DNA of 52,337 nt from a virus. A program made the position numbers and the translations under genes. Position 1 is the first letter of the stretch, and each line of letters starts with the position of its first letter. The notes beneath the pieces are model-generated. The model ran no database searches and was not told where the DNA came from. It saw nothing but the letters and a program-made list of their open reading frames with translations. The DNA is taken from positions 1 through 52,337 of IMG/VR virus record IMGVR_UViG_3300036770_004836. One strand, written 5' to 3'. Shown piece after piece: positions 9,945-25,814 of the stretch.

Positions 9945-12107
9945 TCATATATTCATAAGAATAATATTTTTTCCGTTATCATCCAAACAAACATCACCTT
10001 CAACCATTTCTTCAGCATTAACCCAATTTTTACCCTGCACGTAGAATGGATGTTCAGGTGTTGTTGTAATCAATCCACCATCATTGAAAGTTAAATCAAC
10101 CAAACGACCAACAGTATGAGATTTCAAGTCCCCAACAATACCAGGTTCATTTATTTTTAATTTTTGATTATAGGTCAATACTTCTTCACCAATAACAATA
10201 TCTTCTATGTTTTTATAATCTCCGTTTGATAACGTTATTTCAGTACCAGCAACAAAACAACGATTGTGCACTAACACACTATTTGCAAAAAAGTTATGAT
10301 TATTTTCAACAACTTTAACATTATAAACAATTGTCGGTTCTGAAATAATTTCTAAAGAAATAATACCGACTTCAATCCCATCCTCTCTAAGGACTTTAAC
10401 CCCGACTTCCGCTTGTCTACTATTTAACCCATATACGTTGAAGGTATATAATGGGTCCATAGAAATCCACCCAATTTGTTTTGAATATAGTGGGTGATCC
10501 AATGTTGATTCGAGAATTCCACCATTTTCAAAGGTATATTTTACAGTTTTATCTACTTTTCTTGAACCAACTCCTCTAACTTTTTGTTTTTCAACACTAC
10601 CGTTCTTGAAATTATATGATAAAACCATATCACCAATTTCAACATTTTCCACATTTTTGAATGTATTGTCTGATAAGGTTATTTGAGTGCCAGCAACAAA
10701 ACAAGGTGCGTTATGGGATATTACTCCATTAAAAGGAGTCGATCCACTTATAATGTATGTATCAGTATCTTCAGCATCAAGTTCAACTAATGTCAAGGTT
10801 GTGTCTGTAGTAACATAAAAGTTTACCTCATCAATCGCAATCAAATCACCATCAATGTCATACAAAAAGTCAACACCTGGTTTAAGGTATACCGATAATT
10901 TATATTTTGATATGTTGGTTGAGGAATCATAAATTAAGAAATGTTTGTTTGCCCCTATAAATTTAGATTCTGAGTCAACAACAATTTCAACCAATCCACC
11001 ATACTTTAGTTGTTTTTCGTCTTTGAATACTACTTCGGAAGTGGTCATATATGACCCTTCAGGAAAATATTGCCCTTCGAATGACCAATTCATTATTTCC
11101 GAGTTTATTTCAACCTGAGGTGATCCTGAAATGAAAAAAGATTTGATAAACTCACCTACACCAACATCGGAAATAGGTTTATACTCCTCATCTTCCATCA
11201 AAATTTGGTGTGTAGATAATAATCCACCACAATCTAACTTAATAAAATTTGTAGTATATTCATAATAGTGATGGTCAGCAATTTTATTAGCATATTGAGT
11301 TGTGTTCACCTCACCTGAAAGTGTACTTGGTAGTTCAAAAATAGAACTTATTTTATAATTGTGTAAAGTAAGAATATCTAAACTCGGACCATAAACAATA
11401 TGAAAACTTCTGACAGAAACTATATGTCCATCACCATCAGTGCTCGATGTACCATAATGATATTGTTGAATAATTTTATTCTCAGTTTGAATAGTCCCCA
11501 AAAATCCATCCCATCTGTCTTGATTGGATTCTCCTTCAACTTCTGACCCAATTTTATAAAAATCGATAGGATTAAAGTTTTCAATCATATCTTTTACCGC
11601 CACGTCGGGTAAATTATCAGGATTGATTGTTGATTCTAATGTATTATACGATTCTGTAGATGATGAATAGTAATAAGAAACCACATGAGATTCTTCGTTG
11701 TTAGATGCAAACAAATTTAGAAGCTCAACAGTACCTTTACAGTAAGTACTATCAAACAAAGCCGACTCATCATACGCTAACCTAAGAATAAATTTATCAC
11801 TTGAATCGGGAATTGTTACTGGATATATAGTGTTGATGTCCTCATCATGTAAATTGATAGTTGTTACAGATTCTGTGTTCGCAGAAACGGTTTCTGAAAT
11901 ATGTTTAACTATCTTATCATGAATAAATGGCTTATAAATTATATCTAACTGAGTAATATTGTTGGAATCCATTACATTAATGAATTCAGACAAGTCAAAA
12001 TTATAAAGTTCATTACCAATTATACTTGTATCGGTATTGAATTCCAGTAATCTCAAATTATCATTTGAATCTTTAACAAAGTCAGCGGAGAATAACGTCC
12101 CTTTCAT
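9945..12107 (-). CDS. Large protein with three tandem Hint (intein/hedgehog-like) domains
   Basis: A 720-residue protein. Residues 1-290 are an unrecognised domain with a conserved-looking FILRLAYDESALFDSTYCK. Then come three Hint units, each starting at a Cys and ending in His-Asn. Hint 1 (293-466) is degenerate but keeps KPISDVGVGEF, L-x-x-G-D and ISHN. Hint 2 (469-615) starts CFVAGTQITL, contains LDHPLYS (the T/S-x-x-H block) and ends VLVHN. Hint 3 starts at Cys617 (CFVAGTEITL), contains TPEHPFY, and is cut by a TGA before its last block, which survives downstream. Such modules self-cleave or splice through the Cys and terminal Asn. The arrangement suggests autoprocessing that releases the N-terminal domain. 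It is probably a virion or late accessory protein; its role is unknown. Confidence 0.82.
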   Translation of the reverse strand: MKGTLFSADFVKDSNDNLRLLEFNTDTSIIGNELYNFDLSEFINVMDSNNITQLDIIYKPFIHDKIVKHISETVSANTESVTTINLHDEDINTIYPVTIPDSSDKFILRLAYDESALFDSTYCKGTVELLNLFASNNEESHVVSYYYSSSTESYNTLESTINPDNLPDVAVKDMIENFNPIDFYKIGSEVEGESNQDRWDGFLGTIQTENKIIQQYHYGTSSTDGDGHIVSVRSFHIVYGPSLDILTLHNYKISSIFELPSTLSGEVNTTQYANKIADHHYYEYTTNFIKLDCGGLLSTHQILMEDEEYKPISDVGVGEFIKSFFISGSPQVEINSEIMNWSFEGQYFPEGSYMTTSEVVFKDEKQLKYGGLVEIVVDSESKFIGANKHFLIYDSSTNISKYKLSVYLKPGVDFLYDIDGDLIAIDEVNFYVTTDTTLTLVELDAEDTDTYIISGSTPFNGVISHNAPCFVAGTQITLSDNTFKNVENVEIGDMVLSYNFKNGSVEKQKVRGVGSRKVDKTVKYTFENGGILESTLDHPLYSKQIGWISMDPLYTFNVYGLNSRQAEVGVKVLREDGIEVGIISLEIISEPTIVYNVKVVENNHNFFANSVLVHNRCFVAGTEITLSNGDYKNIEDIVIGEEVLTYNQKLKINEPGIVGDLKSHTVGRLVDLTFNDGGLITTTPEHPFYVQGKNWVNAEEMVEGDVCLDDNGKNIILMNI

Positions 12108-12183: not shown

Positions 12184-12726
12184 TCAAATGAGAATTTTAT
12201 CTTTTAATACGGTTGTTCTCGAAATAGAAATGTGAGTCATTTCCAAACTCTGTGGTAAACTAAGCTGAAACTCAATAACATTATAAATTTCTGAGAATTC
12301 TACTTTATTAAACCCTACCCTTTTATTATGTTCCAACGTGTTCGGATATAAATTAACAATTCTAACTTTTTTATCTAAATTCGAATTAATCAAACTTAAT
12401 GAAGATTTTTGTAATTTTAATTTGTTTTCTCGATAATCATCAAAACTACCATTATTGAAAATAGCCGAGGTCAAAACGTTAAAAATTGTTTTATCCTGGT
12501 ACTTCCACAAATCGAAAAGTTCTTCAAAGATTATTTGTTGGTAAGTTGGATGATATGTATTATTTATAAAAATGTCCATATCTATAACCTCGGACAAAAT
12601 ATTTTTATAGTTTTTCAAATCATATCCATTACTTCTAGAAAAACCTAAAACATCATGATTTTTTTTCAGAAGGTCGAATAGCCCCTTTCCTAAAAATTCA
12701 CTATGTCCTGTTATTCCTATTTTCAT
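12184..12726 (-). CDS. Short NAD(P)-binding Rossmann (SDR-like) protein
   Basis: A 180-residue protein with the nucleotide-binding start KIGITGHSEFLGKGLF, a Thr-Ser-Ala strand (VLTSAIF) and a Y-x-x-x-K pair (YRENK). This is the SDR catalytic arrangement in a protein shorter than the usual about 250 residues. It lacks a clear sugar-binding C-terminal region. It may be a reductase for a keto-sugar made by the neighbouring dehydratases; that is inference. It overlaps the upstream oxygenase by ATGA and is followed by a 76-base spacer before the Hint gene. Confidence 0.65.
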   Translation of the reverse strand: MKIGITGHSEFLGKGLFDLLKKNHDVLGFSRSNGYDLKNYKNILSEVIDMDIFINNTYHPTYQQIIFEELFDLWKYQDKTIFNVLTSAIFNNGSFDDYRENKLKLQKSSLSLINSNLDKKVRIVNLYPNTLEHNKRVGFNKVEFSEIYNVIEFQLSLPQSLEMTHISISRTTVLKDKILI

Positions 12727-13235
12727 ATTAGAGTTGTTTTATTTTTTATATTTTCTTTATATAAAAATAATATTAAAGAATAGCGAATACCACTTTCGAT
12801 TTTGGTTACTTCATGTTCTCTTGTATTTTTGAAAGAATATATAGTACCTCTTACTTTTGGAATAACTTTTTTTGGCCCATATAAAATAAAATCTCCCCCG
12901 ACATAATCATCATTCAAACAAACCCCAACATTTAATGTTTGATTCGGATAGTATATATCATTGTGTCTTTCAAATTCATTACCCGGTTCATACTTGTGTA
13001 AATGAATTATATCAAATGGTTTGACAATTTCTGTCTCACAATCAACCAATAAATAATCAGTAATTTTGTCAAAAATCCACTCTACATCATTATTTCTATA
13101 GATGTTATAGTAGGTATATGAAATTTTTTCTCTTGGTCTTTCGACATGTGTACTATGTACATCACGACGAACACCCTCTATTTGTGTTGTTAAATTTATT
13201 ATTTTATCACACTCTTCTTCTGTAAAAAAAACCAT
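12723..13235 (-). CDS. 2OG-Fe(II) oxygenase (prolyl-hydroxylase type)
   Basis: A 170-residue protein with the full triad: His91-Asn-Asp93, His131, and Arg141 (GIRYSLILF) for 2-oxoglutarate. LNDDYVGGDF (107-116) follows the HxD strand as in prolyl/lysyl hydroxylase-like phage enzymes. It is separated from the four-gene oxygenase cluster by the Hint and SET genes. The substrate is unknown. Its end overlaps the next ATG (ATGA) and gives the recurring Leu-Ile C terminus. Confidence 0.82.
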   Translation of the reverse strand: MVFFTEEECDKIINLTTQIEGVRRDVHSTHVERPREKISYTYYNIYRNNDVEWIFDKITDYLLVDCETEIVKPFDIIHLHKYEPGNEFERHNDIYYPNQTLNVGVCLNDDYVGGDFILYGPKKVIPKVRGTIYSFKNTREHEVTKIESGIRYSLILFLYKENIKNKTTLI

Positions 13236-13272: not shown

Positions 13273-13389
13273 TTAATGGTTGTAAATGAAGGGGTCTCTT
13301 TTTTTCAACTCTTCAATTTTCTTTTTCAATTCTTTTTTTCTTTTGTGTTCTTTGATTTTTTTCAAGAACCAATTAATAATTTTCTTCAT
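13273..13389 (-). CDS. Small basic protein, 38 residues
   Basis: The start at 13389 overlaps the TGA of the carbamoyltransferase (ATGA), the same coupling used by larger genes here. The product is 38 residues, very rich in Lys/Glu, with a Trp-Phe helix start and the end RDPFIYNH. Small Lys-rich proteins ending in D-P-F-I-Y are common in large marine and freshwater phages. An amphipathic or coiled helix is likely. The function is unknown. The stop is at 13273-13275, followed by a 37-base gap. Confidence 0.65.
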   Translation of the reverse strand: MKKIINWFLKKIKEHKRKKELKKKIEELKKRDPFIYNH

Positions 13390-15053
13390 AGTATTTTGTG
13401 TATTATATAATTATCTAAAACTAACAGATCTAAGTCAGTGTCCTTGAAGGTTTCTATCGCATCACACGGAGTCAACACCATTGTTTTATCTTTAACGTTG
13501 AAGGATGTATTCAATATAATTGGATATCCGCTTAGTTTTTCAAACTCAGTTAATAAGTCATGAATAACAGTATTTTCATATACAGTTTGAATTCTTGACG
13601 TTCCGTCCACGTGAACAACTGCAGATAATTTATCTGCATATTCTTCTCTAACTTTAACGATTTGATTCATGTATGGTACATCATCAATTGTGTGGAAAAA
13701 CTCATTTTGTTTCTCTTTAATAACCATAGGAGCAAAAGGACGAAACCCCTCTCTTTTCTTAATCAATCTATTAATTCTGGATTTCATATCGGGTACAGTA
13801 GGGTCGGCTAAAATAGACCTATGTCCTAATGCTCTTGCTCCGAATTCAATTCTATCTCTATACCACCCAACTACTTTACCCTCATGTATTTTTCCCGCAA
13901 CGTATTTTATTAATCTATTGTAATCGTGAATTTCAAAAAAGTTCAAATTTTTAATGTGACCCAAATAAAATTCAACATCGTACTTTGGCCCCAAAAAAGG
14001 ATTCTTAGTTACTCTTTTATTTAATTTTTTATTTTGTACAAGGTAATGGATACAAGCACCAACACAAGACCCTGCATCAGATGGTGCAACAGGTATCCAT
14101 ATTTTTTCAAAATTTGAATTGGAAACTATCTTCCCATTCGCAGTACCATTGTACGCCGAACCACCTCCTAAGCAAAGATTATGACTACCAAGATTTTTCA
14201 AACTTTTAATAATATCGAATAAAACTTCTTCGTATCTTAGTTGAACTGCCGCCGCTAAATTTTGATGAATTATAGTAATTTCTTCTTCAGTTAATCTTGG
14301 TGAAATACCTAAATGTTCTATCAATTTTTCGTTGAACATCAATTTTTCTGACTTATCCCAACAAAAAACATTCATATCACAGATTAATTCTCCATCTTTG
14401 AATTCTATTAAACTTCTAACTTTTTCAATATACTCTTGAGGGTCTCCGTATGATGCTAATCCCATTAATTTATATTCTCCTTCATTTGGTTTGAACCCCA
14501 AATACGAAGTCATTGTAGAATAATAAAGCCCCAATGAATGAGGATATTCCCCCAAATCATGATATTCAATTCCACCATCATCCGCCAAACCAAAAGATAA
14601 TGTGTCAATTTCACCCACACCATCAATAGACAAACAGATTGCCCTTTCAAAATCGGAAGTGAAAAAAGAATAATACTGATGAGCCAAATGGTGTTCGGAG
14701 TAAAATACTCTTCCCTTAAATGGCCTCAAATGTTTATTTACATCTGAGATATTTTTTAAGATTTTAACTAAAGATTTCAAAGAATATTTCGGTGATATAA
14801 AAAAGTTTTTCTTGATGTTACTCAGTACTCTTTTTAGTTTTAGATTGAGGTCTTCATAATAACAAACCATTTCAATATCATCATAAGTTATACTATAATG
14901 ACTAAAGATGTATTCGATTGTATTAATTGGAAAAGAACTATCGTGTTTAATCCCCGTAAATTTTTCTTCTTCACAAGCAAACACCAACTCCCCGTCTTTG
15001 AATAGACAGGCGGATGAATCGTGATAAAAAGATGAAATGCCAAGTACGTACAT
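13386..15053 (-). CDS. NodU/CmcH-family O-carbamoyltransferase
   Basis: A 555-residue protein covering both family domains. The N-terminal Kae1-like domain starts GISSFYHDSSACLF and includes the HHLAHQYYSFFTS and GEYKLMGLASYGDP motifs. The C-terminal domain includes GWYRDRIEFGARALGHRSILADP and FRPFAPMV. The family transfers a carbamoyl group from carbamoyl phosphate, through carbamoyl-AMP, to a sugar hydroxyl (NodU on Nod factors) or an antibiotic core (CmcH). It lies next to the TPP-enzyme genes and probably carbamoylates the sugar built here. Its ATG overlaps the upstream TAA by one base. Confidence 0.9.
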   Translation of the reverse strand: MYVLGISSFYHDSSACLFKDGELVFACEEEKFTGIKHDSSFPINTIEYIFSHYSITYDDIEMVCYYEDLNLKLKRVLSNIKKNFFISPKYSLKSLVKILKNISDVNKHLRPFKGRVFYSEHHLAHQYYSFFTSDFERAICLSIDGVGEIDTLSFGLADDGGIEYHDLGEYPHSLGLYYSTMTSYLGFKPNEGEYKLMGLASYGDPQEYIEKVRSLIEFKDGELICDMNVFCWDKSEKLMFNEKLIEHLGISPRLTEEEITIIHQNLAAAVQLRYEEVLFDIIKSLKNLGSHNLCLGGGSAYNGTANGKIVSNSNFEKIWIPVAPSDAGSCVGACIHYLVQNKKLNKRVTKNPFLGPKYDVEFYLGHIKNLNFFEIHDYNRLIKYVAGKIHEGKVVGWYRDRIEFGARALGHRSILADPTVPDMKSRINRLIKKREGFRPFAPMVIKEKQNEFFHTIDDVPYMNQIVKVREEYADKLSAVVHVDGTSRIQTVYENTVIHDLLTEFEKLSGYPIILNTSFNVKDKTMVLTPCDAIETFKDTDLDLLVLDNYIIHKIL

Positions 15054-15580
15054 TATGAATCGTATTTTTCGGGATATTCATTAATTAAGGTTATCCCCCC
15101 CTCATTTATCGCGTGGTCATAAGCGTTTTTAATATCATCCGCAGTCAAACAATCAAAGAATTTTATTGTTTGAGTTATTGACTGAAACTCTTTGAAATAA
15201 TTATTTCTGTGTTGAGGACCTGGATTCAAAGGTATTTCCGATCCCTTACCGACTCTAATAATCATATTTGGTTTCCACTGACCATTACTCATTAAATCCA
15301 TCTTGTCAACATGGTTTATTAATTGATTAGCAGCACAAATCAAAAAGTCCCATCTCGGATAAAATGTAATCACAAATTTCCCTGTCATTGCCATACCCAA
15401 AGACATTCCCATTTGAGAATCTTCCATCACCGGTAATTCAATCATTTTTTCTTTTGGAACATCAACCAAAGTTGAACTCATAGGGTTCCCAGGAAATAAT
15501 ATTTGTTGCCCAAGAAAAATAGTATTATCCATTTTCCCTAACTTTGTCATTGCGATTGTTAATGAGTTTTTGTATTCCAT
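15053..15580 (-). CDS. TPP-dependent enzyme, beta-like (pyrimidine-binding) subunit
   Basis: A 175-residue protein matching the transketolase-like pyrimidine domain of E1-beta subunits. ELPVMEDSQMGMSLGMAMTG places the catalytic Glu that activates thiamine diphosphate at Glu53. It is followed by TFYPRWDFLICAANQLINHVDK, the characteristic dF..a..Qi.n segment. Full E1-beta proteins have about 330 residues; the transketolase C-terminal domain is missing. The partner is the alpha-like subunit at 16777-17406, with one glycosyltransferase-like gene between them. Such two-subunit enzymes transfer two-carbon units in branched-sugar pathways (AviB1/AviB2 precedent). TAATG overlaps at both ends. Confidence 0.8.
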   Translation of the reverse strand: MEYKNSLTIAMTKLGKMDNTIFLGQQILFPGNPMSSTLVDVPKEKMIELPVMEDSQMGMSLGMAMTGKFVITFYPRWDFLICAANQLINHVDKMDLMSNGQWKPNMIIRVGKGSEIPLNPGPQHRNNYFKEFQSITQTIKFFDCLTADDIKNAYDHAINEGGITLINEYPEKYDS

Positions 15581-16776
15581 TATATTAAACTTTTGAAAAA
15601 CTTGTAATCGGTATCATCTTGTAATATACAAGTAACTTTTTTCTTATTAAGTTCAAATCTTTCCTGATTTTTTTTATAAAAATTAATTATTTCGTCTTTG
15701 ATAGAATTTAATCTTTTCACTTCATCAACAAACATAAAAAGTCGTTTTCTCGGGTCTTTTTCACTGTCATAAGAATAATCAATAATATCCTCAAACAAAT
15801 CAAAATCATATCTTTCTTTCAAGAACTTATTATGTTCAAAATTAGCCAATATCAAAGGAATTTGAGAATAATAAATTGGTATCAATGATTTTTCAGTAAT
15901 ATGAATTACATCTGTAGATATGTAACCAGTTTCAGTAACAATATTAACATATGAATTTCTATAAGGATTCATTTCATATGTTTTATAAAAGTCAATGAAG
16001 TAAGGTGGTTGGTCAACTCTATATTCTTCTTCGAACCTACTTTTTTTAATTCCTGATTTTTGAAGAAACAATATCTCATTATAATATTCTTCGAAATCGT
16101 CCCTATCAAAAACTTCAAAAAATAAATTGAATGATGGTGTTCCATTTGGATCGGAAAATCGTTCATTCAATTCATTACCACGTAACATTGTCCAATCAAC
16201 TTCATCTAATATCCCTTCTCTTTTCAGTAACGCCAACAGAGACACTCTATGTGGTTTTAACATTCTGTTATAGCACATAAAAAATGATTCTTTGTCTTTT
16301 TGAAATTCGTACTTGAATGAGGTCATTCCTTCGACCGCCACATAAGGTAATCTATTTGAAGTATGTCCAACAACTTCGCTATTTAACTCATTGATTAATT
16401 TTTTAATTTTCTGATTCCCATTGATTGCGATTACCTGATTCGAATTAATCGATTCTTCATTACAATATTTTTCAATAAGTTTTATTATGTTTCCATTATC
16501 GGACTCATGTTCGGCTAAAATAACAAGAAAGCAATTGGAGTACAATTTCATTAACTCTTTTACTTTTGAGGAAGCAGGAAGTGATTGAAAATTTTCCATA
16601 TAAGTCCCTGTTATTGTAAATGAATAATATTTTTGTTCGGAGTCAATCTCAAAATTATTAATATCAATCATTTTAATCCCGTCAACTTTGTTAGCGGTCA
16701 AAGTGTTAAAAATATGTTCCTTTTCGTTTTCGATATTACTATCAAACAATAAATTAAAATACTTCATAATCTTCAA
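15580..16776 (-). CDS. Putative glycosyltransferase, TEK-signature family member 1
   Basis: A 398-residue protein of a family with five copies in this window. The conserved C-terminal half has FMCYNRMLKPHR, then SYVNIVTETGY, then TEKSLIPIYYSQIPLIL, then DFDLFEDIIDYSYDSE. The arrangement (V-x-E-T, T/S-E-K, aromatic-rich P-L/F-I, acidic pocket) resembles the nucleotide-sugar-binding half of GT10 or exostosin-like GT-B enzymes. The N-terminal half is variable, as expected for acceptor binding. It sits between the two TPP-enzyme subunits. Met4 is an alternative start. Closest in-window relative: the 26584 protein. Confidence 0.6.
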   Translation of the reverse strand: MKIMKYFNLLFDSNIENEKEHIFNTLTANKVDGIKMIDINNFEIDSEQKYYSFTITGTYMENFQSLPASSKVKELMKLYSNCFLVILAEHESDNGNIIKLIEKYCNEESINSNQVIAINGNQKIKKLINELNSEVVGHTSNRLPYVAVEGMTSFKYEFQKDKESFFMCYNRMLKPHRVSLLALLKREGILDEVDWTMLRGNELNERFSDPNGTPSFNLFFEVFDRDDFEEYYNEILFLQKSGIKKSRFEEEYRVDQPPYFIDFYKTYEMNPYRNSYVNIVTETGYISTDVIHITEKSLIPIYYSQIPLILANFEHNKFLKERYDFDLFEDIIDYSYDSEKDPRKRLFMFVDEVKRLNSIKDEIINFYKKNQERFELNKKKVTCILQDDTDYKFFKSLI

Positions 16777-17406
16777 TTAAAATACAACCCACTTACCTGT
16801 TCCATAATGAGGCCATTGTTTTTCATATTCATAATAGACCACATCATTCGGGACCTCTAATTTTTTACCCCATGTTTCGATTGTTGGAGTATTTGTAGAA
16901 ACTCCATTATCTTCAACAACAAATCTAACAGGTAATTCAAAGTTTTTTATGTATTTGTAGTTTTCCATAAAAGTACCTGTCTCAAAAGTCATATCCCCAA
17001 TAAAACACCAAACAATTTCACTCTTATTATCCCGTTTATTGGACATTGCAACACCAGTTGCGATTGGAATTATTCCGCCAACAATCGCAGAACTATAGAA
17101 TTTTTTTTCTCTATTGATGATACTAATTGACCTTCCATCCAAAATTTCTAACTCTAACCAATTAGGTGATACTCCTTTAAGTAAAGCGTGATAATGAGAC
17201 CTCCATGTAGAAAATACCCAATCATTCTCTGAAATTCTTTTGAAGATTTCAATAAGATGTTTTTCATTTCCTCCACTCAAATGCACAGGACCTCGTATTT
17301 TACCAGTTTCCCAACTTCCAACTATTTTATTTTCAAAATGAATAAGTTCTTCTTCATTCCAGTTGTGTTCTCTAACTATTGGATACTGTTCTAAATTTTT
17401 TATCAT
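16777..17406 (-). CDS. TPP-dependent enzyme, alpha-like (diphosphate-binding) subunit
   Basis: A 209-residue protein matching the E1-alpha TPP-binding core. The Mg/TPP motif runs from Gly127-Asp128 (IGDMTFETG) to Asn157 (VVEDN), the standard 30-residue spacing. R-S-H-Y (69-72) and GRSISI (91-96) fit the family's upstream motifs. Full E1-alpha subunits have 350-400 residues, so this is a minimal domain. With the 175-residue beta-like partner it should form a heteromeric pyruvate-decarboxylating or C2-transferring enzyme. No lipoyl E2 or E3 partner is present, which argues against a dehydrogenase and for acyloin or ketol transfer. Confidence 0.82.
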   Translation of the reverse strand: MIKNLEQYPIVREHNWNEEELIHFENKIVGSWETGKIRGPVHLSGGNEKHLIEIFKRISENDWVFSTWRSHYHALLKGVSPNWLELEILDGRSISIINREKKFYSSAIVGGIIPIATGVAMSNKRDNKSEIVWCFIGDMTFETGTFMENYKYIKNFELPVRFVVEDNGVSTNTPTIETWGKKLEVPNDVVYYEYEKQWPHYGTGKWVVF

Positions 17407-17408
17407 TT

Positions 17409-18020
17409 TTATTTATTGAATGATACTATTGTAAATCTTGGATTATTAGCGTATTTTTGAACCGCACTTACAAAGTGTGGTTGTCTGAATATTTTATTAT
17501 TTAATAAGACAACTCTGTTGTATTTAGGGAAAATTTGTTCATTAAAATCTTCGTCCTCTTCCGAACAAATGTTCAAAATTCCACCCCAATCCCAAATCCA
17601 TTCTTTATTAACATAATAAATTAAGTTAATCTTTCCTGCATAATCGTCCATGTGTAATCGATAATGGTCTTCACTATCGAGTTTATAACATCTGATATCG
17701 AACTCATTTAACATGAACGGTGATACTTTTTTGAGGGTTTCTAAAAAATACTGATTGAAGATTTCCAAAATATATTCATCTTTTTCTAAATTCGGTGACC
17801 TACTAAAACTTGAAGTGTATACTTCATTTTCACTAGGTAATGTAGATGAATTAGTTTTGAATACATGTGAATAATGATTTTCTCTTTCTTGTGAAATTTT
17901 ATCCCAATTTATTTCTTGTGAAAACAACTCATTCAATTTGGCAGCAAAATCTTTCGGTAAAAAATTATCAATTACCGAGTACCCCTTTTCAGTTAATTCC
18001 TCTTTAACTCTCTCTATCAT
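17409..18020 (-). CDS. 2OG-Fe(II) oxygenase
   Basis: A 203-residue protein. The triad is His123-Met-Asp125 and His182, with Arg195 (PRFTIVSF) for 2-oxoglutarate. [15 protein letters not shown] is the strand after HxD, and [10 protein letters not shown] near the N terminus is typical of the prolyl-4-hydroxylase/SM-20 type. It lies between the TPP-enzyme gene and a hypothetical. Given the context it could hydroxylate a sugar or a fibre residue; neither is demonstrated. Confidence 0.8.
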
Positions 18021-18428
18021 TTATTTCCAACTTATACCCCAATCCTTGAACTCCGCGGCCAAACAATCTGTTTTATAATCTTTTCTACCACCTACAATTT
18101 CTTGTATCTTATTTTTAGCAGTATTTCGTACACCATTTAATCCATGAGTCAACTCCAAGTTGTTACCCTCCTTAATACCTTTACGGTAATTGGACTCATT
18201 GTGCCAAATATGTAAGTTTGTTTGTGCCAAAACAACAATTGCACGAATCGTCTCAGCATCAACAATTCCTTTATTTTCTTGAAGTATCAAATCAATATCG
18301 TGTTTAATATCTCTAATCTCTTGCGAATATTCCTCTTTGTGTTCAGGAATAAAAACTTCTTTGAGTTGTGAAATGCTCATTCTATCAATTAATTCCGCTA
18401 AGGTGGGTAAGTATTTTCTTTTCTCCAT
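18021..18428 (-). CDS. Hypothetical protein, 135 residues
   Basis: No recognised domain. The N-terminal half is helical with charged repeats (LAELIDRMSISQLKEVFIPEHKEEY). The middle is a hydrophobic helix (AIVVLAQTNLHIWHNES), and the second half contains LTHGLNGVRNTAKNKIQE and a C-terminal Trp pair. Proteins like this, starting with a D-R-x-S-I-x-Q-L-K-E pattern, are widespread unknowns in large phages, from memory of the type. It abuts its neighbours with 0-1 base, so it is co-expressed with the sugar genes. Confidence 0.7.
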   Translation of the reverse strand: MEKRKYLPTLAELIDRMSISQLKEVFIPEHKEEYSQEIRDIKHDIDLILQENKGIVDAETIRAIVVLAQTNLHIWHNESNYRKGIKEGNNLELTHGLNGVRNTAKNKIQEIVGGRKDYKTDCLAAEFKDWGISWK

Positions 18429-18429
18429 A

Positions 18430-19440
18430 TTATCTATTCAAAAATTTTCGTCCTTTATTTATTTTTTCTCTCCAATAATCTAACAAGTCATCCATTGTTT
18501 GATTATAAGATATTTTTGGCTCCCAACCAGTCATTTCTCTAAACTTAGTTGTATCAGGTACTTGTAAATCAGCATCTATTGGTCGTAACCTATTTTGGTC
18601 AACAACGACTTCAATATGATTACGCATATGAGATTTAGATATAAGATAATTTAAGGTATCTCCAACCTTACAAGTATACGTCCCTCCTATATTATAATAT
18701 GCACCTGGCGATGGGTTTACACTAAGTAACATCCAATATGCTCTTACCGCATCCCTAACATCAGCATAAGTTCGTAAAGAATCTAAATTACCCACAAATA
18801 TCTTGGGCTCTTGAATTCCATATTCAATCATCGCAATTTGTTTTGCAAATGTAGATTCATGAAATACATCACCCCTTCTCGGACCTGTATGGGTAAACAT
18901 TCTAGTAGTCATTACCATCATTTGATAAGCCTCACCATAATATCTACCAATTAAATCTGTTCCGACTTTGGAAATTGCATATGGTGATGCCGGATGTAAT
19001 GTACATTCTTCATTTATTGGTAGTTGTTCTTTGGAAACCCTCCCAAATATCTCACTTGACGCACAAACATGTACATAAGCATTTTTGTATGGTGATTTCC
19101 TTAACGCCTCTAATAAATTAGCGGTTCCAATTATGTTAGTTTGTAATGTTTCGATAGGAGAATCAAAACTAGTTTGTGGATAGGACTGAGCCCCTAAGTG
19201 AAAAACATAATCAGGTTTTGAAACATCTATGGCATTAAGAATTGAACTGAAATCATTCAAATCACCATAGATTAACTTTACCCTATCTGTGTTGTTGATA
19301 ATTTCGGTTAGGTGTTCAATATTATCCATTGGTTCGTTCCATCTACAAAAACCGTAGATTTTTACTTCTGGTTTTTCTAATAAAAAATCAACCATGTGGG
19401 ACCCAACCATCCCTAAAACACCTGTTATTAATACATTCAT
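18430..19440 (-). CDS. gmd: GDP-mannose 4,6-dehydratase-like enzyme
   Basis: A 336-residue extended SDR. The NAD(P) loop is GVLGMVGSH (7-15). The catalytic region is CASSEIFGRV (Ser-Ser-Glu) with YAISK for the Tyr-Lys pair, then RMFTHTGPRRGD, a GMD-type substrate loop. Length and motifs fit nucleotide-sugar 4,6-dehydratases, most like GMD, which makes GDP-4-keto-6-deoxymannose. A CDP- or UDP-sugar substrate cannot be excluded by eye. Its product is the substrate type required by the ColD-like enzyme at 22524-23711 and by GDP-fucose synthase-like epimerases, both encoded just upstream in the same operon. Confidence 0.8.
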   Translation of the reverse strand: MNVLITGVLGMVGSHMVDFLLEKPEVKIYGFCRWNEPMDNIEHLTEIINNTDRVKLIYGDLNDFSSILNAIDVSKPDYVFHLGAQSYPQTSFDSPIETLQTNIIGTANLLEALRKSPYKNAYVHVCASSEIFGRVSKEQLPINEECTLHPASPYAISKVGTDLIGRYYGEAYQMMVMTTRMFTHTGPRRGDVFHESTFAKQIAMIEYGIQEPKIFVGNLDSLRTYADVRDAVRAYWMLLSVNPSPGAYYNIGGTYTCKVGDTLNYLISKSHMRNHIEVVVDQNRLRPIDADLQVPDTTKFREMTGWEPKISYNQTMDDLLDYWREKINKGRKFLNR

Positions 19441-20630
19441 TGATATATGCCTTTGAAAATGTTTTCAGTTAAACTCCATTTATCAGGTAATCCAAATGGT
19501 TCTGCATAATTATTATCGAAGTCCCTAAGTAAAATTTTATATTCATCTTTATTTTCTTTGATTAGGGTTTTCAGTTGACTCGGAATATACTCATCATTAT
19601 AAACAATTGCAGTTGCTGTGTCAATATTAGACCTTGACAAATCAATGACTTCATTTCGAACTTGTCCAAAATCTTTGTTTTTTATTGCATAAAGATTATC
19701 GATAATTCCCAAACATCTCAAAGGTATTGAATTTGCATCATCAAATCGATAATCAAATATATTACCATACAAAGAAAATCCATATTTTGATAAATTCAAA
19801 TTTTGACCTCGTGCACCCAAAACCAAAAATGGTTTACCAAACAAAATACTCTTGAAAGTTTTTTCGGTATGAAACATGTATTCTTTAGTTAACTCAGGAA
19901 TTACATGATTGAATGAATGGTATGGGTACGTTTCTCCAACAATATCAATTAAATTGGGAGTATTATATAATTTTTCCGAAAAATATCGTTGTGGCATGTC
20001 AGCAGGCTTATCATAAAACTCATCATAGGTTAATTGTCGTGCTTGAAAATATTTGAAGTTCCACCCTTGAGATTCTTTGTGCTGCCATGTGTTTATTCCA
20101 TAATTAAATAAATCAAATTTACACAAGTAATCCAATAACATTGCACGATGATTTCTTGCATGGTTGTTGAGATTAAGATAAAGTTTGTCGATTGGTCTAT
20201 ATCGATTGAATAACTTTGAAGGTTCCATACCATAAGCTTGAGCCATACCATAAAATGTATAATGGAGTAACGCAGTTGGCCAAAATAATACTTCAAAATT
20301 TTTGATTGGATTAGTTTTAATATTCACATATGCATTACTATAATCACAACCAACAAGAAGATATAACTTGACATTGTTTTTTATCAAAGTATTTTCGAGA
20401 TGCTGAAAATCCTTTCGATGATTCGGATTGATATCGTAATCATATTCAAGGTAACTCATAAATCGTTCATCAAAAGCCTCCCAAGGATGCCAAAGTATTG
20501 CATGACTTTCAGGTTTTATTCTATCGATTAAATCAGAAATCTCATCAACGTTCGTGAAACCACCCGAAGGATTAATTAATAAAACACTTTTATGAAACCT
20601 ATAATCGACCATGATTTTTATACCATTCAA
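19437..20630 (-). CDS. Putative glycosyltransferase, TEK-signature family member 2
   Basis: A 397-residue divergent member of the five-copy family. It has YLNLNNHARNHRAMLL (the N-x-x-x-R-x-H-R segment), NLIDIVGETYP, HTEKTFKSILFGKPFLVLG and a terminal FDYRFDD instead of D-E-S-Y-D. The first 180 residues have a Rossmann-like character (KSVLLINPSGG). Likely a GT-B-type sugar transferase. The annotated start overlaps the next gene by 32 bases; Met7 (20612) sits after an A-rich stretch and is an equally good or better start. Confidence 0.55.
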   Translation of the reverse strand: MNGIKIMVDYRFHKSVLLINPSGGFTNVDEISDLIDRIKPESHAILWHPWEAFDERFMSYLEYDYDINPNHRKDFQHLENTLIKNNVKLYLLVGCDYSNAYVNIKTNPIKNFEVLFWPTALLHYTFYGMAQAYGMEPSKLFNRYRPIDKLYLNLNNHARNHRAMLLDYLCKFDLFNYGINTWQHKESQGWNFKYFQARQLTYDEFYDKPADMPQRYFSEKLYNTPNLIDIVGETYPYHSFNHVIPELTKEYMFHTEKTFKSILFGKPFLVLGARGQNLNLSKYGFSLYGNIFDYRFDDANSIPLRCLGIIDNLYAIKNKDFGQVRNEVIDLSRSNIDTATAIVYNDEYIPSQLKTLIKENKDEYKILLRDFDNNYAEPFGLPDKWSLTENIFKGIYQ

Positions 20631-21558
20631 TAGTTTCAGTTATACCTCGTTCAAAAGTGTAATTAGGAATAAACCCGAGTTCTGTTTGTATTCTATCAGT
20701 ACTCACAGCACGGAATGGGATTGTTGTTGGTTTTGATTCATCCCATGTAACTTCAGGAGTTAATCCACTTACTTTTACTATCGTATCAACAATTTTACCG
20801 ATAGTTATTCCGCCTCCATATCCTAAATTATAAGGTCTCATTGATTCTCCTTTTTCAAGAATTAAAAGTCCACCATTAACCACGTCTTTGACGTATAGAA
20901 AATCTCTAACAACGTCAGATGTACCCCACACAACAAAAGGATTTTCCCCACTTAACAACCTTTTTATCAGTGCAGGAACCACGTGACAAGTTTTCAAATC
21001 AAAGTTATCGTAAGGCCCGAATATTGCAGTACCTCTTGCAATACAGATTTTCATATCCCCCAAACGTGATACGTGTTCCATCAACTTTTCCCGATATCTC
21101 CTCATCCATCCATATCCATAGTAAGATTTATAAGGTTCATCCACCCAAAACTCATCTTCGGTTAGTGGTCTTCTGATGTCAGGATATCCTGTAGAACTAT
21201 TAAGATCTAAAAATTTTTTTACTTTTGATTTGTACGATGCTTCCAATACATTTCCAATTATTTGGATTTGTTTCAATGAAATTTGTACATCAGTTGGTAC
21301 TGTGGAAGGATGAGCAATTTGTCCCGCACAATGAATTACATAATCACAACCTTCAACAAGCTTGAAACAATCTTCTAACTTTGTTAGGTCTAAATTTTCA
21401 TGAACAATGATACTCTCATGCGTATATTGTAATGGAGATTTGTGAGTATGAGTAATAACTTTTGCACCTTGTTTGACAAGTTCAATTAAATAATGAGTAC
21501 CGATGAATCCGGATCCACCAGTTACCACAACCTTTTTATCTTTGAAGAATTCACTCAT
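20599..21558 (-). CDS. NAD-dependent nucleotide-sugar epimerase/reductase
   Basis: A 319-residue extended SDR. NAD loop GGSGFIGTHY (14-23); NSSTGYPDI for the catalytic Ser-Thr strand; YGYGWMRRYREK where Y-x-x-x-K is expected, here Y-G-W-M-R, so Arg seems to replace Lys. RGTAIFGPYDNFD is the substrate loop and FVVWGTSDVVRDFLYVKDV is typical of GDP-fucose synthase-like and UDP-sugar epimerases. It may be a C4-reductase or 3,5-epimerase in the deoxysugar route. It is adjacent to a paralogue at 21560-22534. Confidence 0.78.
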   Translation of the reverse strand: MSEFFKDKKVVVTGGSGFIGTHYLIELVKQGAKVITHTHKSPLQYTHESIIVHENLDLTKLEDCFKLVEGCDYVIHCAGQIAHPSTVPTDVQISLKQIQIIGNVLEASYKSKVKKFLDLNSSTGYPDIRRPLTEDEFWVDEPYKSYYGYGWMRRYREKLMEHVSRLGDMKICIARGTAIFGPYDNFDLKTCHVVPALIKRLLSGENPFVVWGTSDVVRDFLYVKDVVNGGLLILEKGESMRPYNLGYGGGITIGKIVDTIVKVSGLTPEVTWDESKPTTIPFRAVSTDRIQTELGFIPNYTFERGITETIEWYKNHGRL

Positions 21559-21559
21559 A

Positions 21560-22534
21560 CTAATGGTTAATAAAAGGATTATATCGTTTATCTAAAATAT
21601 CTTTATTATTCAAAAACCACTCTGTAGTTTTTTTAACACCCTCTTCCAATGAAGTATGACTTTTGAACCCATATTTATTCATCTTATTCATACTCATCAA
21701 TCTTTGTTTATCACCACTCGGTACATCGGTATACCACTTAACATCAATGTCTTTTCCTGAATGTTTGATGACTAATTCAACAAGTTCTTTAATTGAATTA
21801 CCTTCTCCCGAACCCAAGTTAACAGGTTCAGTAATTTTATTTTCAACCGTAAAAATCATACCTTCAGCGACATCTTCAGCATAAATAAAATCACGAATTG
21901 GAGACCCATCTCCAAAAACGTCTAAAACATCGTTTTCCTGAGCTTTACGTATCAATGAAGGTACAACCATCGCATTAGCAGGATTAAAGTTGTCATATGG
22001 TCCATAAACGTTTGCAGGTCTAACTATTGATATCCTATCCCACCCGTATTGTTTTTTATAGGTTTCAGTTTGTAATTCTCCAATTCTTTTCGCCCACCCC
22101 GCATAAATGTCGTTAGGTGAAGGAAAACTACCCCAAACACTTTCTTCATAAAAAATTTCAGACGGAGCATAAACTCCAACTGAACTTGTGAACAAATACC
22201 ATTTGACATCAGATTCAAATGCAGCTTGAGTCATGTTAGTATTGAACTGCAACATAGGGACCATAAAATCAACTGGTTGATTCATACACATCTGTGGAGA
22301 CCCCTTAACACCCGCTAAATGGAAAACATAATCTTTTCCCTTACATACTTCTAAACAACTATTAAAATTTCTCAAGTCAGTCTTGACAAAATCAACATTG
22401 AAGGGTAAGTGTTCTGGTTCTGTCAAATCCGCAATAGTGACTTTGGCACCTCTTAATACTAACTTTTTAACAAGTTGTCTCCCAATCATCCCGGCGCCAC
22501 CTGTTACTAATACTTTTTGGTTATTAAACATCAT
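21560..22534 (-). CDS. NAD-dependent epimerase, GDP-fucose synthase-like
   Basis: A 324-residue extended SDR. NAD loop GGAGMIGRQL; TSSVGVYAPSE; IYAGWAKRIGELQTE at the catalytic Tyr/Lys position (Lys conserved, Tyr offset by one relative to Y-x-x-x-K, as in the hGWAKRxGE subgroup); RPANVYGPYDNFNPANAMVVPSLI; FGDGSPIRDFIYAEDV. The PANVYGPyDNF run is typical of GDP-fucose/colitose-type synthases and related epimerases. It probably acts on the 4-keto product of the dehydratase or ColD-like enzyme. Overlaps the ColD-like gene by 11 bases. Confidence 0.78.
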   Translation of the reverse strand: MMFNNQKVLVTGGAGMIGRQLVKKLVLRGAKVTIADLTEPEHLPFNVDFVKTDLRNFNSCLEVCKGKDYVFHLAGVKGSPQMCMNQPVDFMVPMLQFNTNMTQAAFESDVKWYLFTSSVGVYAPSEIFYEESVWGSFPSPNDIYAGWAKRIGELQTETYKKQYGWDRISIVRPANVYGPYDNFNPANAMVVPSLIRKAQENDVLDVFGDGSPIRDFIYAEDVAEGMIFTVENKITEPVNLGSGEGNSIKELVELVIKHSGKDIDVKWYTDVPSGDKQRLMSMNKMNKYGFKSHTSLEEGVKKTTEWFLNNKDILDKRYNPFINH

Positions 22535-23711
22535 TCAATCTTTTTACTAAATTTATAATTTCGTCATCCGTTACATCCGTATGATTTCCAATGTACAATG
22601 AATTATTATGAACATAATTCACAAAGTCCAAATCCCCAACAACCTTAAATGGAAAACTATCTAAATATGGTTGGTTGGCCTGATTTCCACCACCAGCAGT
22701 TCCTAATCTATATTCCACACCATAAAAATCGAGAATGTCACAAACGCTATCGAAATCGTCATTGATATGAAATCTGTGTTGATACTCAGGTTTTATTATC
22801 AGAGGTAGTGCAAAACTACTATTACCTTCAACAATAAACTCAGTATAATATTTTTTTTTATCTAAATTTTCTAACCAAACTGATAGGTTATGTTTACGTT
22901 TTTCAATATTAAAATCAATTCGTTTCATCTGTTCAATACCAAGTACCGCATTTATTTCAGTGCTTCTCATGTTGAATCCTGCAACTGCAAAAGTGAAAAG
23001 TGGATTCAAATCCTTATAATTATTTCTATAAAAATTTTGAGTTTCTTCCGAACCTTCTCTCGTCATACCATGAGACCTGAATAACCTACAGAGTTCGTGT
23101 ATTTCTGGATTATTAGTACAAATCATTCCACCTTCTACAGTTGTAATATGGTGACCGAAATAATATGAAAAAATTGATATGTCCCCGAAACTTCCAACCT
23201 TCTGTTCTCCATATGTCGCACCATGTGCCTCACAACAATCCTCAATTAAAAGAATATCATTTTCTTTAGCGATTTTGATAATCTCTTCGTTTATAGCATT
23301 GAATCCCAAACAATGTACAAGTACTATTGCCTTTGTTTTTTTTGTGATGGCTCTTTTGATATTTTCTACGGTAATTGATAATCTATCTAAAGAGATGTCC
23401 ACAAATACCGGTGTCATTCCTAATTGAACGACTGACGAAATATCTGAAACCCAGCCTAATGGAGGAACAATAACTTCACCGATACCTTTAAGATGTTTTA
23501 CAATTGCAATTGAAACAAAATTACCGGAGTTTCCTGAGTTCAACATAGTACTATGTTTTACCCCCAACCAATTACTCCAAATATTTTCAAACTCTTTTAC
23601 TTTATCACCGTTTGTGAGCCTCTGATTTGAAAGAATAAATTCGGAAAGTACACGTCTGTCTTCATCAGAAACATTATCATTTATTAATGGCCATTTATAA
23701 TTTTTTCCCAT
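22524..23711 (-). CDS. ColD/RfbH-like PLP-dependent sugar 3-dehydratase (DegT fold)
   Basis: A 395-residue DegT/DnrJ/EryC1-fold protein with complete length. Asp158 (IEDCCEAHG) fits the pyridine-nitrogen contact. In the active-site segment FSYYFGHHITTVEGGM the Schiff-base Lys of aminotransferases is replaced by His188. His at this site is the hallmark of ColD (GDP-4-keto-6-deoxymannose 3-dehydratase, catalytic His188 in E. coli) and RfbH/E1. These remove the C3 hydroxyl rather than aminating. It lacks an obvious CX-rich iron-sulfur motif, so it is closer to ColD than RfbH. Encoded with a GMD-like enzyme, it should make a 3,6-dideoxy-4-ketohexose. Confidence 0.82.
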   Translation of the reverse strand: MGKNYKWPLINDNVSDEDRRVLSEFILSNQRLTNGDKVKEFENIWSNWLGVKHSTMLNSGNSGNFVSIAIVKHLKGIGEVIVPPLGWVSDISSVVQLGMTPVFVDISLDRLSITVENIKRAITKKTKAIVLVHCLGFNAINEEIIKIAKENDILLIEDCCEAHGATYGEQKVGSFGDISIFSYYFGHHITTVEGGMICTNNPEIHELCRLFRSHGMTREGSEETQNFYRNNYKDLNPLFTFAVAGFNMRSTEINAVLGIEQMKRIDFNIEKRKHNLSVWLENLDKKKYYTEFIVEGNSSFALPLIIKPEYQHRFHINDDFDSVCDILDFYGVEYRLGTAGGGNQANQPYLDSFPFKVVGDLDFVNYVHNNSLYIGNHTDVTDDEIINLVKRLNDV

Positions 23712-23728
23712 AATAATAAAAATAAATG

Positions 23729-24463
23729 TTATTCAATCGAAGTCAAAGAATTGTCCAATATTAATTTGAGAAGCGGTATGGGTATTTTCACAGGATTATG
23801 TAACCCAACAGGATAAGGGTAAAAAATATCTTCAACACTAAATTGCATCGCAGTCAATATGTCGGGCAATTCCTCATCATTCAAGTTTTTTATGAAAAAA
23901 ATATCTTCCCAAATGTCTTCTTCGTAATCATTGTTTTTCAAATATTCAATTGTTTTTGATTTTTTTCGGATGGACAATCCACCATTACCAACAAACTTTC
24001 CTTCTTTTGGAAACGTCCACGGAGCACCAATAAAGTCATATTCCAAAAAATCATCTATATTATCTCTCAATAACAAAGAATCTATTTGAAAATTAAGTAT
24101 AGTTTCCCCCTTAACCATTTCCCAGAATTCAATAGTTTTCAATAATTCCGTATGAGTTTTTTTGTCGAGGTCTTCGATGTCTAATTTCGTTAGGACAACA
24201 TTACTCCAATCTTTGACAATATTCTTTATATAGTTTTCATTACTCTCACTATGAAAAATTTGTAATCCCCATTTTACATTTCGATTTCCTTTATTCAAAA
24301 AATAAATGTGGTTTTTTAGTATTTGTTCGAAATTAATAACAGTCCTATTCTCAATAATAATTGAATTAAACTCCGAATTTTTTTTCAGTTTGGGGTGAAA
24401 ATTTTTAGTTTTTTCTGTGAATTTGACCAAATAATCATTTAATAAATCGTATTGTTCTGTCAT
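23729..24463 (-). CDS. DUF5672-type putative glycosyltransferase
   Basis: A 244-residue protein. The central block ILNFQIDSLLLRDNIDDFL, then YDFIGAPWTFPKEGKFVGNGGLSIR, matches the DUF5672 pattern (fQ-D-s...YD-y-IGAPW....vGNGG-lS-R). That family is regarded as GT-A-like because of its Q-x-D-S acidic site. Residues 155-205 (WEDIFF, PDILTAMQFSVED) fit its C-terminal part. It is preceded by an SGNH gene with ATGA coupling. Donor and acceptor are unknown. Confidence 0.75.
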   Translation of the reverse strand: MTEQYDLLNDYLVKFTEKTKNFHPKLKKNSEFNSIIIENRTVINFEQILKNHIYFLNKGNRNVKWGLQIFHSESNENYIKNIVKDWSNVVLTKLDIEDLDKKTHTELLKTIEFWEMVKGETILNFQIDSLLLRDNIDDFLEYDFIGAPWTFPKEGKFVGNGGLSIRKKSKTIEYLKNNDYEEDIWEDIFFIKNLNDEELPDILTAMQFSVEDIFYPYPVGLHNPVKIPIPLLKLILDNSLTSIE

Positions 24464-25080
24464 AAAAATTCTTGGATTTTGTGATAAATGTAATCCCCAA
24501 TAATTCGGTACCCAAACTCATTAGGATGATAATCCCCTTTGAACATGTTTTCTTTATCGTCCCAAACTTTTCGGCTATTATACTCCCAAACAGAAATATC
24601 ATTCTGTCTCTCATAAAAATTGAGAAAATCTGAAAGACATTCTTCAGGATTAATAAAATACTTCGGTAGTTGCCCCACCTCAAAATCTTCATCCAGAAAT
24701 GTGGGATAAAAAGAATTAAAATAGAAGTGTATATGGTTTTGAAGTTTAGATTCTAATTTGTTATAAATCTCAATGACATTGTAAGTATCTGCAGTATATC
24801 TGTACGGGTAAGAAAACATTACAATAATAATATCATTTGGTTCAATGAATCCATAGTTAAATGACTCTTCAACTTCTTTTAAGATATACTCGTTTCCATA
24901 TCCACAAACACCACAATTTACATACAAACAATCTAATTTTTGAGCAACCCACCTTGGCCAAGAATTTTGATTTCGTAAATTTGTTATAAATTTTTCAGGA
25001 TGTGCGACTTCTTTATACTTAGAATCGGTTTCAATTCCATGACCTGCAGTCCAACTATCACCGAAACATATTAGTTTCAT
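24460..25080 (-). CDS. SGNH-family hydrolase, short form
   Basis: A 206-residue protein. Block I is FGDSWTAGHG with nucleophile Ser9. NCGVCGYGNEYI supplies the Gly and Asn oxyanion blocks. KGDYHPNEFGYRIIGDYI near residue 183 carries the Asp-His pair as D-x-H, one residue tighter than canonical D-x-x-H. It is the first of three adjacent SGNH genes (24460-26587) that are coupled by ATGA overlaps. Likely an O-acyl esterase or acyltransferase acting on sugars. Confidence 0.75.
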   Translation of the reverse strand: MKLICFGDSWTAGHGIETDSKYKEVAHPEKFITNLRNQNSWPRWVAQKLDCLYVNCGVCGYGNEYILKEVEESFNYGFIEPNDIIIVMFSYPYRYTADTYNVIEIYNKLESKLQNHIHFYFNSFYPTFLDEDFEVGQLPKYFINPEECLSDFLNFYERQNDISVWEYNSRKVWDDKENMFKGDYHPNEFGYRIIGDYIYHKIQEFL

Positions 25081-25814
25081 ATTAAATTTTCTCTTTTTTT
25101 GATAAACTCATAAAAGTATTTTGCATGTGATAGATGACCCAACTCTCCACTATGTAAGTCCTTTACTTCACCTGAAGTTTCATGCTCCATTGTATGTTTT
25201 CCATCGGAATATAATCTTCTTGCAAACTCAAAAACATCAAAGTTACCATCGGGAGTTGTTATGAAACTACCAACTTCATCTTTATTAATATAATCATCAT
25301 GAAAAAATGCACCATCAGAATTCCAATGTAAAATTTTAACATCACTTCGAATACAAAAGGTATTAATTAAAGATACCCAGTTCCAAAGTTCTGAATTCCA
25401 AGCAGGATGTGATCTATTATTAAAAACTTCTATCAAGGTATCATCAGAAAAAATATGAGTTCCATTAGTATTAATGAACGATGGCAATATGTTATTCATA
25501 TGTCCATCTCTTTCATTATATGCCACAAACCTTAAAAGAGATGTCCATCCAATAATTACTAAGTCTCCCTTTTGAAAATTTTTATGTTCGTCAATGAATT
25601 TCCAAAAAATGGTTTGGTTAGCAGCTCCTCCCTCCCCACAGTTTTTAACATCGTAATTCATCATTTCACCGAGTACTGTCGGCCAAACTTTTGGTAAATT
25701 CCCACCTCTCCAATCTTTGTAATCATCATAATTACTTCTGTGATTAACATCTCCTACTGGATGATATTCTGCAGTAAAACTACATCCAAATACCCATAAA
25801 GTTTTTTTACTCAT
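25077..25814 (-). CDS. SGNH-like protein with GCSF in place of GDSF
   Basis: A 245-residue protein. Block I reads FGCSFTAEY with Ser12 and Cys11 in place of the usual Asp. NCGEGGAANQTIFWKFI supplies Gly and Asn blocks. DLVIIGWTSLLRF matches the strand seen in the next paralogue (DMVIINWTYPQRF). DLHSGELGHLSHAKYF is the terminal Asp-His block (D-x-H). The shared DYKDWRGGNLPKVW and DYRGGQLPLCW segments show close relation to the 25811 gene. Substrate unknown. Confidence 0.72.
   Translation of the reverse strand: MSKKTLWVFGCSFTAEYHPVGDVNHRSNYDDYKDWRGGNLPKVWPTVLGEMMNYDVKNCGEGGAANQTIFWKFIDEHKNFQKGDLVIIGWTSLLRFVAYNERDGHMNNILPSFINTNGTHIFSDDTLIEVFNNRSHPAWNSELWNWVSLINTFCIRSDVKILHWNSDGAFFHDDYINKDEVGSFITTPDGNFDVFEFARRLYSDGKHTMEHETSGEVKDLHSGELGHLSHAKYFYEFIKKRENLI

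Follow-up and report, generated by a model that had tools for sequence, protein, structure and literature searches.

The DNA analysed here (the window, 52,337 bases) is the entire IMG/VR virus record IMGVR_UViG_3300036770_004836, possibly a fragment. Its collagen-like tail-fibre genes, which encode an endosialidase-type chaperone domain, identify it as phage DNA, and no close phage isolates were found at the DNA level. It contains a cassette of nucleotide-sugar genes that includes a two-subunit thiamine diphosphate (TPP) enzyme, TPP-alpha and TPP-beta (Table 1). The cassette is encoded entirely on the minus strand, in agreement with the co-directional run that had been described in the original prediction. 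The genes are transcribed in the order ColD-like pyridoxal phosphate (PLP) enzyme, SDR1, SDR2 (both related to short-chain dehydrogenases/reductases, SDRs), 397-amino-acid (aa) protein, 4,6-dehydratase, 135-aa protein, 2-oxoglutarate (2OG)-Fe(II) oxygenase, TPP-alpha, 398-aa protein, TPP-beta and carbamoyltransferase. The two TPP genes belong to one run and are not adjacent, as the gene of the 398-aa protein lies between them. The same gene set is present, with its order kept, in dozens of other contigs, far beyond chance.

Table 1. Genes of the cassette, in order of transcription.
Feature	Coordinates	Strand	Basis or remark
ColD-like PLP enzyme	22524–23711	-	DegT family; predicted GDP-6-deoxy-4-keto-heptose 3-dehydratase
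SDR1, Fcl-related extended SDR without catalytic Tyr	21560–22534	-	profile and PDB sequence matches, alignment
SDR2, SDR1 paralogue (33% identical) without YxxxK	20599–21558	-	keeps the Fcl H179 equivalent
397-aa protein	19437–20630	-	no Pfam or PHROG family match; near relatives have it
DmhA-like, predicted GDP-D-glycero-D-manno-heptose 4,6-dehydratase	18430–19440	-	PDB 7us5 match
135-aa four-helix protein, highly conserved cassette partner	18021–18428	-	18 diverse relatives
2OG-Fe(II) oxygenase, accessory	17409–18020	-	family match; only part of the relatives have it
TPP-alpha, minimal E1-like diphosphate-binding subunit, 209 aa	16777–17406	-	E1_dh, 59 bits
398-aa protein between alpha and beta	15580–16776	-	no Pfam or family match
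TPP-beta, minimal pyrimidine-binding subunit, 175 aa	15053–15580	-	Transket_pyr only, 28 bits
NodU/CmcH-type carbamoyltransferase	13386–15053	-	Carbam_trans_N and Carbam_trans_C

The dehydratases, the SDR pair and the predicted sugar

The 4,6-dehydratase had been described as GMD-like. Against all PDB sequences, however, it scores 366 bits with 7us5 (52.7% identity), compared with 183 bits for a GDP-6-deoxy-4-keto-hexulose reductase and 145 bits for GMD (1db3), and its SDR Tyr/Lys pair is intact (YAISK). We take 7us5 to be the GDP-D-glycero-D-manno-heptose 4,6-dehydratase of Campylobacter jejuni. The window protein is predicted to be a relative of the GDP-heptose 4,6-dehydratases (DmhA/DdahA), closer to these than to GMD.

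In relatives of the cassette without a DmhA-like gene, its place is taken by a protein close to 6vo6 (353 bits), presumably Cj1427, the GDP-heptose C4-dehydrogenase. A 3,5-epimerase encoded beside the Cj1427-like and TPP-alpha genes matches 7ang, 7m14 and 8db5 at about 137 bits, compared with 98 bits for the best RmlC; its nearest sequence matches are GDP-4-keto-heptose epimerases. Bacterial and some phage cassettes contain genes resembling those of heptose-7-phosphate kinases and guanylyltransferases, and the window itself encodes a GT9 heptosyltransferase-type domain. Because of the 7us5 match, the Cj1427-like and epimerase relatives, the kinase and guanylyltransferase genes and the GT9 domain, the sugar of the pathway is most likely a heptose, and the substrate GDP-heptose rather than GDP-mannose.

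A route from GDP-mannose, as in colitose synthesis, was considered and rejected, since the dehydratase is a relative of a heptose enzyme and the colitose-like gene set of cyanophage S-CAM7 looks different. S-CAM7 also carries 4,6-dehydratase (GMD), Fcl-like and ColD-like genes side by side. Its dehydratase, however, is only 32% identical to that of the window, its Fcl has an intact YAIAK motif, and no TPP gene is annotated in the 19-kb region viewed.

The expected ColD-like 3-dehydratase was borne out. The best PDB match of this protein is ColD (183 bits, versus 150 bits for RfbH), a His-His pair replaces the PLP lysine region (FGHHITTVEGG), and neither a CxC nor an Fe-S motif is present in it. 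These features support a ColD-type C3-dehydratase with His in place of the PLP Lys and without Fe-S cysteines; an RfbH-type Fe-S dehydratase is ruled out by the missing CxC/Fe-S motif. We infer the substrate from homology and, because the window protein is divergent (32% identical to E. coli ColD), the 3-deoxygenation as well.

The activity of a 4,6-dehydratase and a PLP-dependent 3-dehydratase on GDP-heptose has been demonstrated in the GDP-3,6-dideoxyheptose pathway of C. jejuni HS:5/HS:11, which finishes with a C5-epimerase and a C4-reductase and uses no TPP enzyme (PMC10440746). The same paper gives m/z 600.08 for its 3,6-dideoxy-4-keto product. The window shares this pair of dehydratases, and its relatives a 3,5-epimerase-like gene. 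In contrast to C. jejuni, the window contains the TPP pair and no recognisable C4-reductase.

SDR1 and SDR2 resemble GDP-fucose synthase (Fcl) in overall sequence. In alignments of 47 sequences each, SDR1 has A, P or S in place of Fcl Y136, V in place of C109 and mostly M or T in place of H179. In SDR2, neither Cys109 nor the Tyr-Lys pair is conserved, while the His179 equivalent is kept in most sequences. A YxxxK motif is absent anywhere in the window SDR1 and SDR2 proteins, in contrast to the Fcl of S-CAM7. Neither protein has the Fcl set of Tyr136/Lys140, Cys109 and His179, and with these catalytic residues missing the normal epimerase and reductase roles of Fcl were rejected for both. The original prediction of two GDP-fucose-synthase-like epimerases is thus supported as to relationship and not as to the epimerase role. 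One could speculate that SDR1 is a ketoreductase of the branch or catalyzes a non-redox step.

The TPP pair and its relatives

TPP-alpha and TPP-beta comprise two TPP-binding domains only. In profile searches, TPP-alpha scores 93 bits with PDH_E1_alph and 20 bits, far below the cut-off, with transketolase; the TPP_enzyme_C match of the pair is below the cut-off. Beta Glu53 and His124 and alpha Asp138 are invariant in 15 diverse sequences, and alpha Asn167 is nearly invariant. We take Glu53/His124 to correspond to the catalytic Glu59/His128 of E1-beta, and Asp138 to the Mg2+ ligand of the GDG motif. The 52-kb record, possibly a fragment, contains no match to 2-oxoacid_dh (the E2 component), Biotin_lipoyl or Transketolase_C (PF02780). 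The E1_dh and Transket_pyr genes and the missing E2/lipoyl match agree with the minimal two-subunit TPP enzyme without E2 that had been proposed.

In a maximum-likelihood tree, the alpha sequences group together in a clade of their own (95/98), apart from the reference E1-alphas; the transketolase row has a long branch, and its position is uncertain. Grouping of the pair with ordinary pyruvate dehydrogenases that have an E2 partner, which would have spoken against a role in sugar synthesis, was not seen. The E1 homology could still reflect a remnant of pyruvate dehydrogenase E1 that docks on a host E2. We consider this very improbable: the C-terminal domain of beta is absent, as is an E2 or lipoyl protein from the record, the alpha clade is separate from PDH E1-alpha, and the pair is located in nucleotide-sugar clusters.

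Homologues of alpha and beta are fused into one protein in two cyanophages, S-SM2 and P-TIM68. This is the phrog_34187 'transketolase central region-containing protein', for which PHROGs lists no function. The fused proteins (42% and about 31–34% identical) also occur in heptose clusters, with a Zn-alcohol dehydrogenase and ADP-heptose-type genes as partners, unlike the split genes of the window. An AlphaFold2 model of a fused homologue (predicted local distance difference test, pLDDT, 80; predicted template modelling score 0.80) has transketolase-superfamily matches in the PDB over both domains, the best being transketolase and DXS. The fold search confirms a two-domain TPP module and does not separate transketolase from E1. 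A search of a viral fold library gave no significant match and weak leads only, among them 171–192-aa 'transketolase' proteins in the Campylobacter phages IBB35 and CP21 (E about 0.02). These are possibly a further branch of split phage TPP enzymes, in phages whose hosts have heptose capsules.

Among the matches listed, beta has more than 500 viral relatives; alpha was found at 17 loci of the bacterial and archaeal genome collection. From the viral TPP loci, a non-redundant sample of 37 was taken, each flanked by 8 kb or more on either side. A gene forming a C4 ketone, either DmhA-like or Cj1427-like, is present in 35 of these, SDR1 and SDR2 together in 31 and a 3,5-epimerase in 30, while a heptose-supply gene is found in none by the thresholds used. 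As a control, 31 loci whose Fcl-like SDRs are more distant were compared, and these carry no TPP gene. In a separate sample centred on ColD, genes resembling heptose kinases are common.

These loci bear on the possibility that the pair is a stripped-down transketolase that acts before the nucleotide sugar is formed and provides sedoheptulose-7-phosphate for making the heptose. This role would fit the many bacterial and cyanophage relatives found in a heptose context, and also the best fold matches, although such matches are to be expected when a single chain from this superfamily is the query. We nevertheless regard it as unlikely. The sequence is E1-like, neither the profile match nor the Transketolase_C domain of a transketolase was found, and the pair tracks the C4-ketone step and not the heptose-supply genes. 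In addition, a separate split transketolase adjoins the pair in a Pelagibacteraceae cluster (L045: kinase, SDR2, DmhA-like, split transketolase, alpha, beta, SDR1, epimerase). A Verrucomicrobiae cluster (L053) combines guanylyltransferase-like, kinase-like, alpha and beta genes with an adjoining ColD-like gene. The two bacterial clusters repeat the gene associations of the phage loci.

The ColD-centred sample comprises 68 loci. The minimal pair (type A) is present in 43 and a different, full-length E1-like pair (type B) in 16, and no locus has both. Several of the 9 loci with neither pair are truncated contigs. In most loci read, type B occupies the same slot, between the epimerase and ColD. 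The type B subunits of locus L246 (8294–10008) have 275 and 304 aa and score 108 bits with PDH_E1_alph (alpha) and 32 bits with PDH E1-beta (beta). Because one TPP pair displaces the other in the same slot, the pathway seems to require a TPP step. Co-occurrence and displacement both support the view, already part of the original prediction, that a PDH-E1-like pair acts in a sugar pathway outside a dehydrogenase complex.

Type B loci also carry DJ-1/PfpI, cupin and HAD-like genes. The DJ-1/PfpI-like and cupin genes directly precede the type B pair (L246 6706–8304, L236 6715–8292, L266 11160–12375), and a small HAD-like gene is found at the type B cassettes of L246 and L236. The products of these genes may make or guard a two-carbon donor.

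The set might also end, like the C. jejuni HS:5 pathway, in a GDP-3,6-dideoxyheptose without a branch, with the TPP pair taking part in the synthesis of a second sugar in that glycan. In favour of this, C. jejuni manages without a TPP enzyme, and many other glycan genes are present in the window. A TPP pair of type A or B is found, however, in 59 of the 68 ColD loci, the two types being mutually exclusive and in the same slot, and no normal C4-reductase or 5-epimerase for finishing an unbranched sugar was recognised in the window. We consider this arrangement rather unlikely.

A possible carbon-branching step

AviB1/AviB2, Pau11/Pau12 and KbDH have been proposed or shown to transfer two-carbon units from pyruvate onto keto sugars or analogues (PMC4753412, PMC4425429, PMC12247030). 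The window pair resembles AviB1/AviB2, Pau11/Pau12 and KbDH alpha/beta, all alpha-keto acid dehydrogenase 2 branching enzymes, in being a two-subunit E1-like enzyme with the TPP residues and without E2, encoded in a cluster for a deoxysugar that passes, in the window by prediction, through a 4-keto form. It differs in the size of its subunits (209 and 175 aa, without the C-terminal domain, versus 325 and 345 aa in Pau11/Pau12) and forms a separate clade; the described enzymes belong to antibiotic clusters. YerE carries out a TPP-dependent two-carbon addition to a CDP-3,6-dideoxy-4-keto-hexose of a surface glycan (yersiniose), an acceptor similar to the nucleotide-activated 3,6-dideoxy-4-keto sugar proposed here. 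It is, however, a single-chain flavoprotein of the decarboxylase type with TPP_enzyme_N/M/C domains, acts on a CDP-hexose and belongs to a different TPP superfamily, while the window pair consists of two subunits with E1_dh and Transket_pyr domains.

We propose, with a probability of roughly one half, that the phage encodes the late steps in the synthesis of a GDP-activated, branched 3,6-dideoxyheptose. Following the 4,6-dehydratase, the ColD-like PLP enzyme would remove O3 to give GDP-3,6-dideoxy-4-keto-heptose, as suggested by homology and by the C. jejuni HS:5 pair. In the third step, TPP-alpha and TPP-beta would form one E1-like active site and decarboxylate a 2-oxo acid, most likely pyruvate. 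Addition of the resulting two-carbon carbanion to the ketone at C4 would yield a tertiary alcohol that bears an acetyl arm. We infer this step from association, displacement and chemistry. It is conceivable that SDR1 and SDR2 then act on the ketone or on the branched product through an unusual active site, and, also speculatively, that the sugar is transferred to a glycan of the virion or host surface and carbamoylated there. The 3,6-dideoxy-4-keto intermediate of the original prediction is supported; GDP-mannose as its source is replaced by GDP-heptose, which would yield a dideoxyheptose derivative.

In relatives, a Cj1427-like C4 dehydrogenase takes the place of DmhA, and a 3,5-epimerase is present in addition; the constant element of the cassettes therefore appears to be a GDP-4-keto-heptose. 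In the simplest interpretation, TPP-alpha/beta would attach two carbons at C4 of this compound, in line with the C4 branching proposed for AviB1/AviB2. The carbon–carbon bond, its donor, the roles of SDR1 and SDR2 and the carbamoylation are put forward as hypotheses.

The same cofactor chemistry in reverse would allow the pair to cleave carbon from the keto sugar by retro-benzoin or ketol transfer, shortening or rearranging the heptose, and the SDR partners are not normal reductases. This appears improbable. ColD-catalyzed 3-deoxygenation leaves no C3 hydroxyl beside the C4 ketone, which disfavours cleavage there, and the known two-subunit enzymes acting on keto sugars add two-carbon units.

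Several points weigh against the proposed two-carbon addition. No heptose kinase or guanylyltransferase was found in the window, and the phage would therefore depend on its host for GDP-heptose. The loci belong to related phages, and the counts are not independent events. Two loci with ColD, SDR1, SDR2 and DmhA genes (L227, L262) have no TPP gene in the available flank. The fused cyanophage form lies beside ADP-heptose-type genes and the Zn-alcohol dehydrogenase, with no clear C4-ketone maker, and the TPP enzyme may not have one function throughout the family. In the tree, the alpha clade stays apart from the single AviB-like actinobacterial reference cluster (L382/L406); a pair that works like AviB may not belong to AviB.

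If the proposal is correct, phages possess a dedicated TPP-dependent carbon–carbon bond-forming step on GDP-heptoses, of which we found no description in the open-access literature. The pair would be a minimal ketone-accepting TPP enzyme, its two chains totalling 384 aa, and could serve in the preparation of tertiary alcohols. A function would be assigned to a widespread phage family related to phrog_34187 (more than 500 viral loci among the matches listed), and also to heptose clusters of uncultured marine bacteria. The branching claim is directly testable because one TPP pair displaces another in the same cassette.

A broader and decidedly tentative idea, which we think unlikely to hold in full, is that TPP-alpha/beta and the two paired SDRs without catalytic tyrosine constitute a new carbon-branching module on GDP-4-keto-heptoses. 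Such a module, present in many phages and some bacteria and able to use one or the other of two E1-type TPP pairs that are distant relatives, might make a never-seen sugar for phage collagen-like tail fibres or for host-surface remodelling. No published description of the pathway was found in the open-access literature; preprints and most subscription papers lay outside the search.

Other genes of the window and of related loci

The carbamoyltransferase gene has relatives near a TPP gene at 24 of 31 non-redundant loci, and its product possibly performs a tailoring step. The relatives of the 135-aa protein are 56–93% identical and occur in phage heptose cassettes of both TPP types. The protein is predicted by AlphaFold2 to be folded, with four helices (pLDDT 83), and no family or significant structural match in the PDB was found for it. 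The 397-aa protein is possibly a glycosyltransferase, as is, judged by eye, the 398-aa protein.

The window has six genes that resemble 2OG-Fe(II) oxygenase genes, some of which score below the family cut-off (6559–7008, 7011–7532, 7537–8079, 8076–8657, 12723–13235 and 17409–18020). They share the phage with collagen-like fibres and many glycan genes; a testable idea is that the phage hydroxylates and then glycosylates its fibres. Long repeat proteins are encoded at 48888–51068 and 51365–52318 (minus strand), where the GC content reaches 0.46. The first of these, a tail fibre, is collagen-like and carries an endosialidase-type chaperone domain.

A 1495-aa multidomain protein at 100–4587 (plus strand, opposite to the rest) combines the GT9 heptosyltransferase-type domain with a methyltransferase and a group 1 glycosyltransferase. 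The 720-aa protein at 9945–12107 has AXH, Hint and intein-splicing matches. Three consecutive genes at 24460–26599 are SGNH/GDSL hydrolase-like by eye, the first with a Pfam match slightly below the cut-off. The 229-aa protein at 34423–35112 is a shortened member of the DegT family and probably not a full aminotransferase.

B12-type radical SAM enzymes are encoded inside heptose/ColD cassettes of other loci (L260 9544–11568, L266 15667–17718, L051–L053). They include a KedN5-like C-methyltransferase in L266 and an HpnJ/BchE-like enzyme in L053, suggesting further C-methylation. A search of actinobacteria for AviB homologues gave four E1-alpha matches, one of them in a dTDP-sugar cluster. In this cluster (L382, G094:C20:61000-75000), an AviB-like E1 pair lies by RmlA/RmlB-like and DegT genes, which makes it a candidate for an uncharacterised branched-sugar antibiotic cluster.

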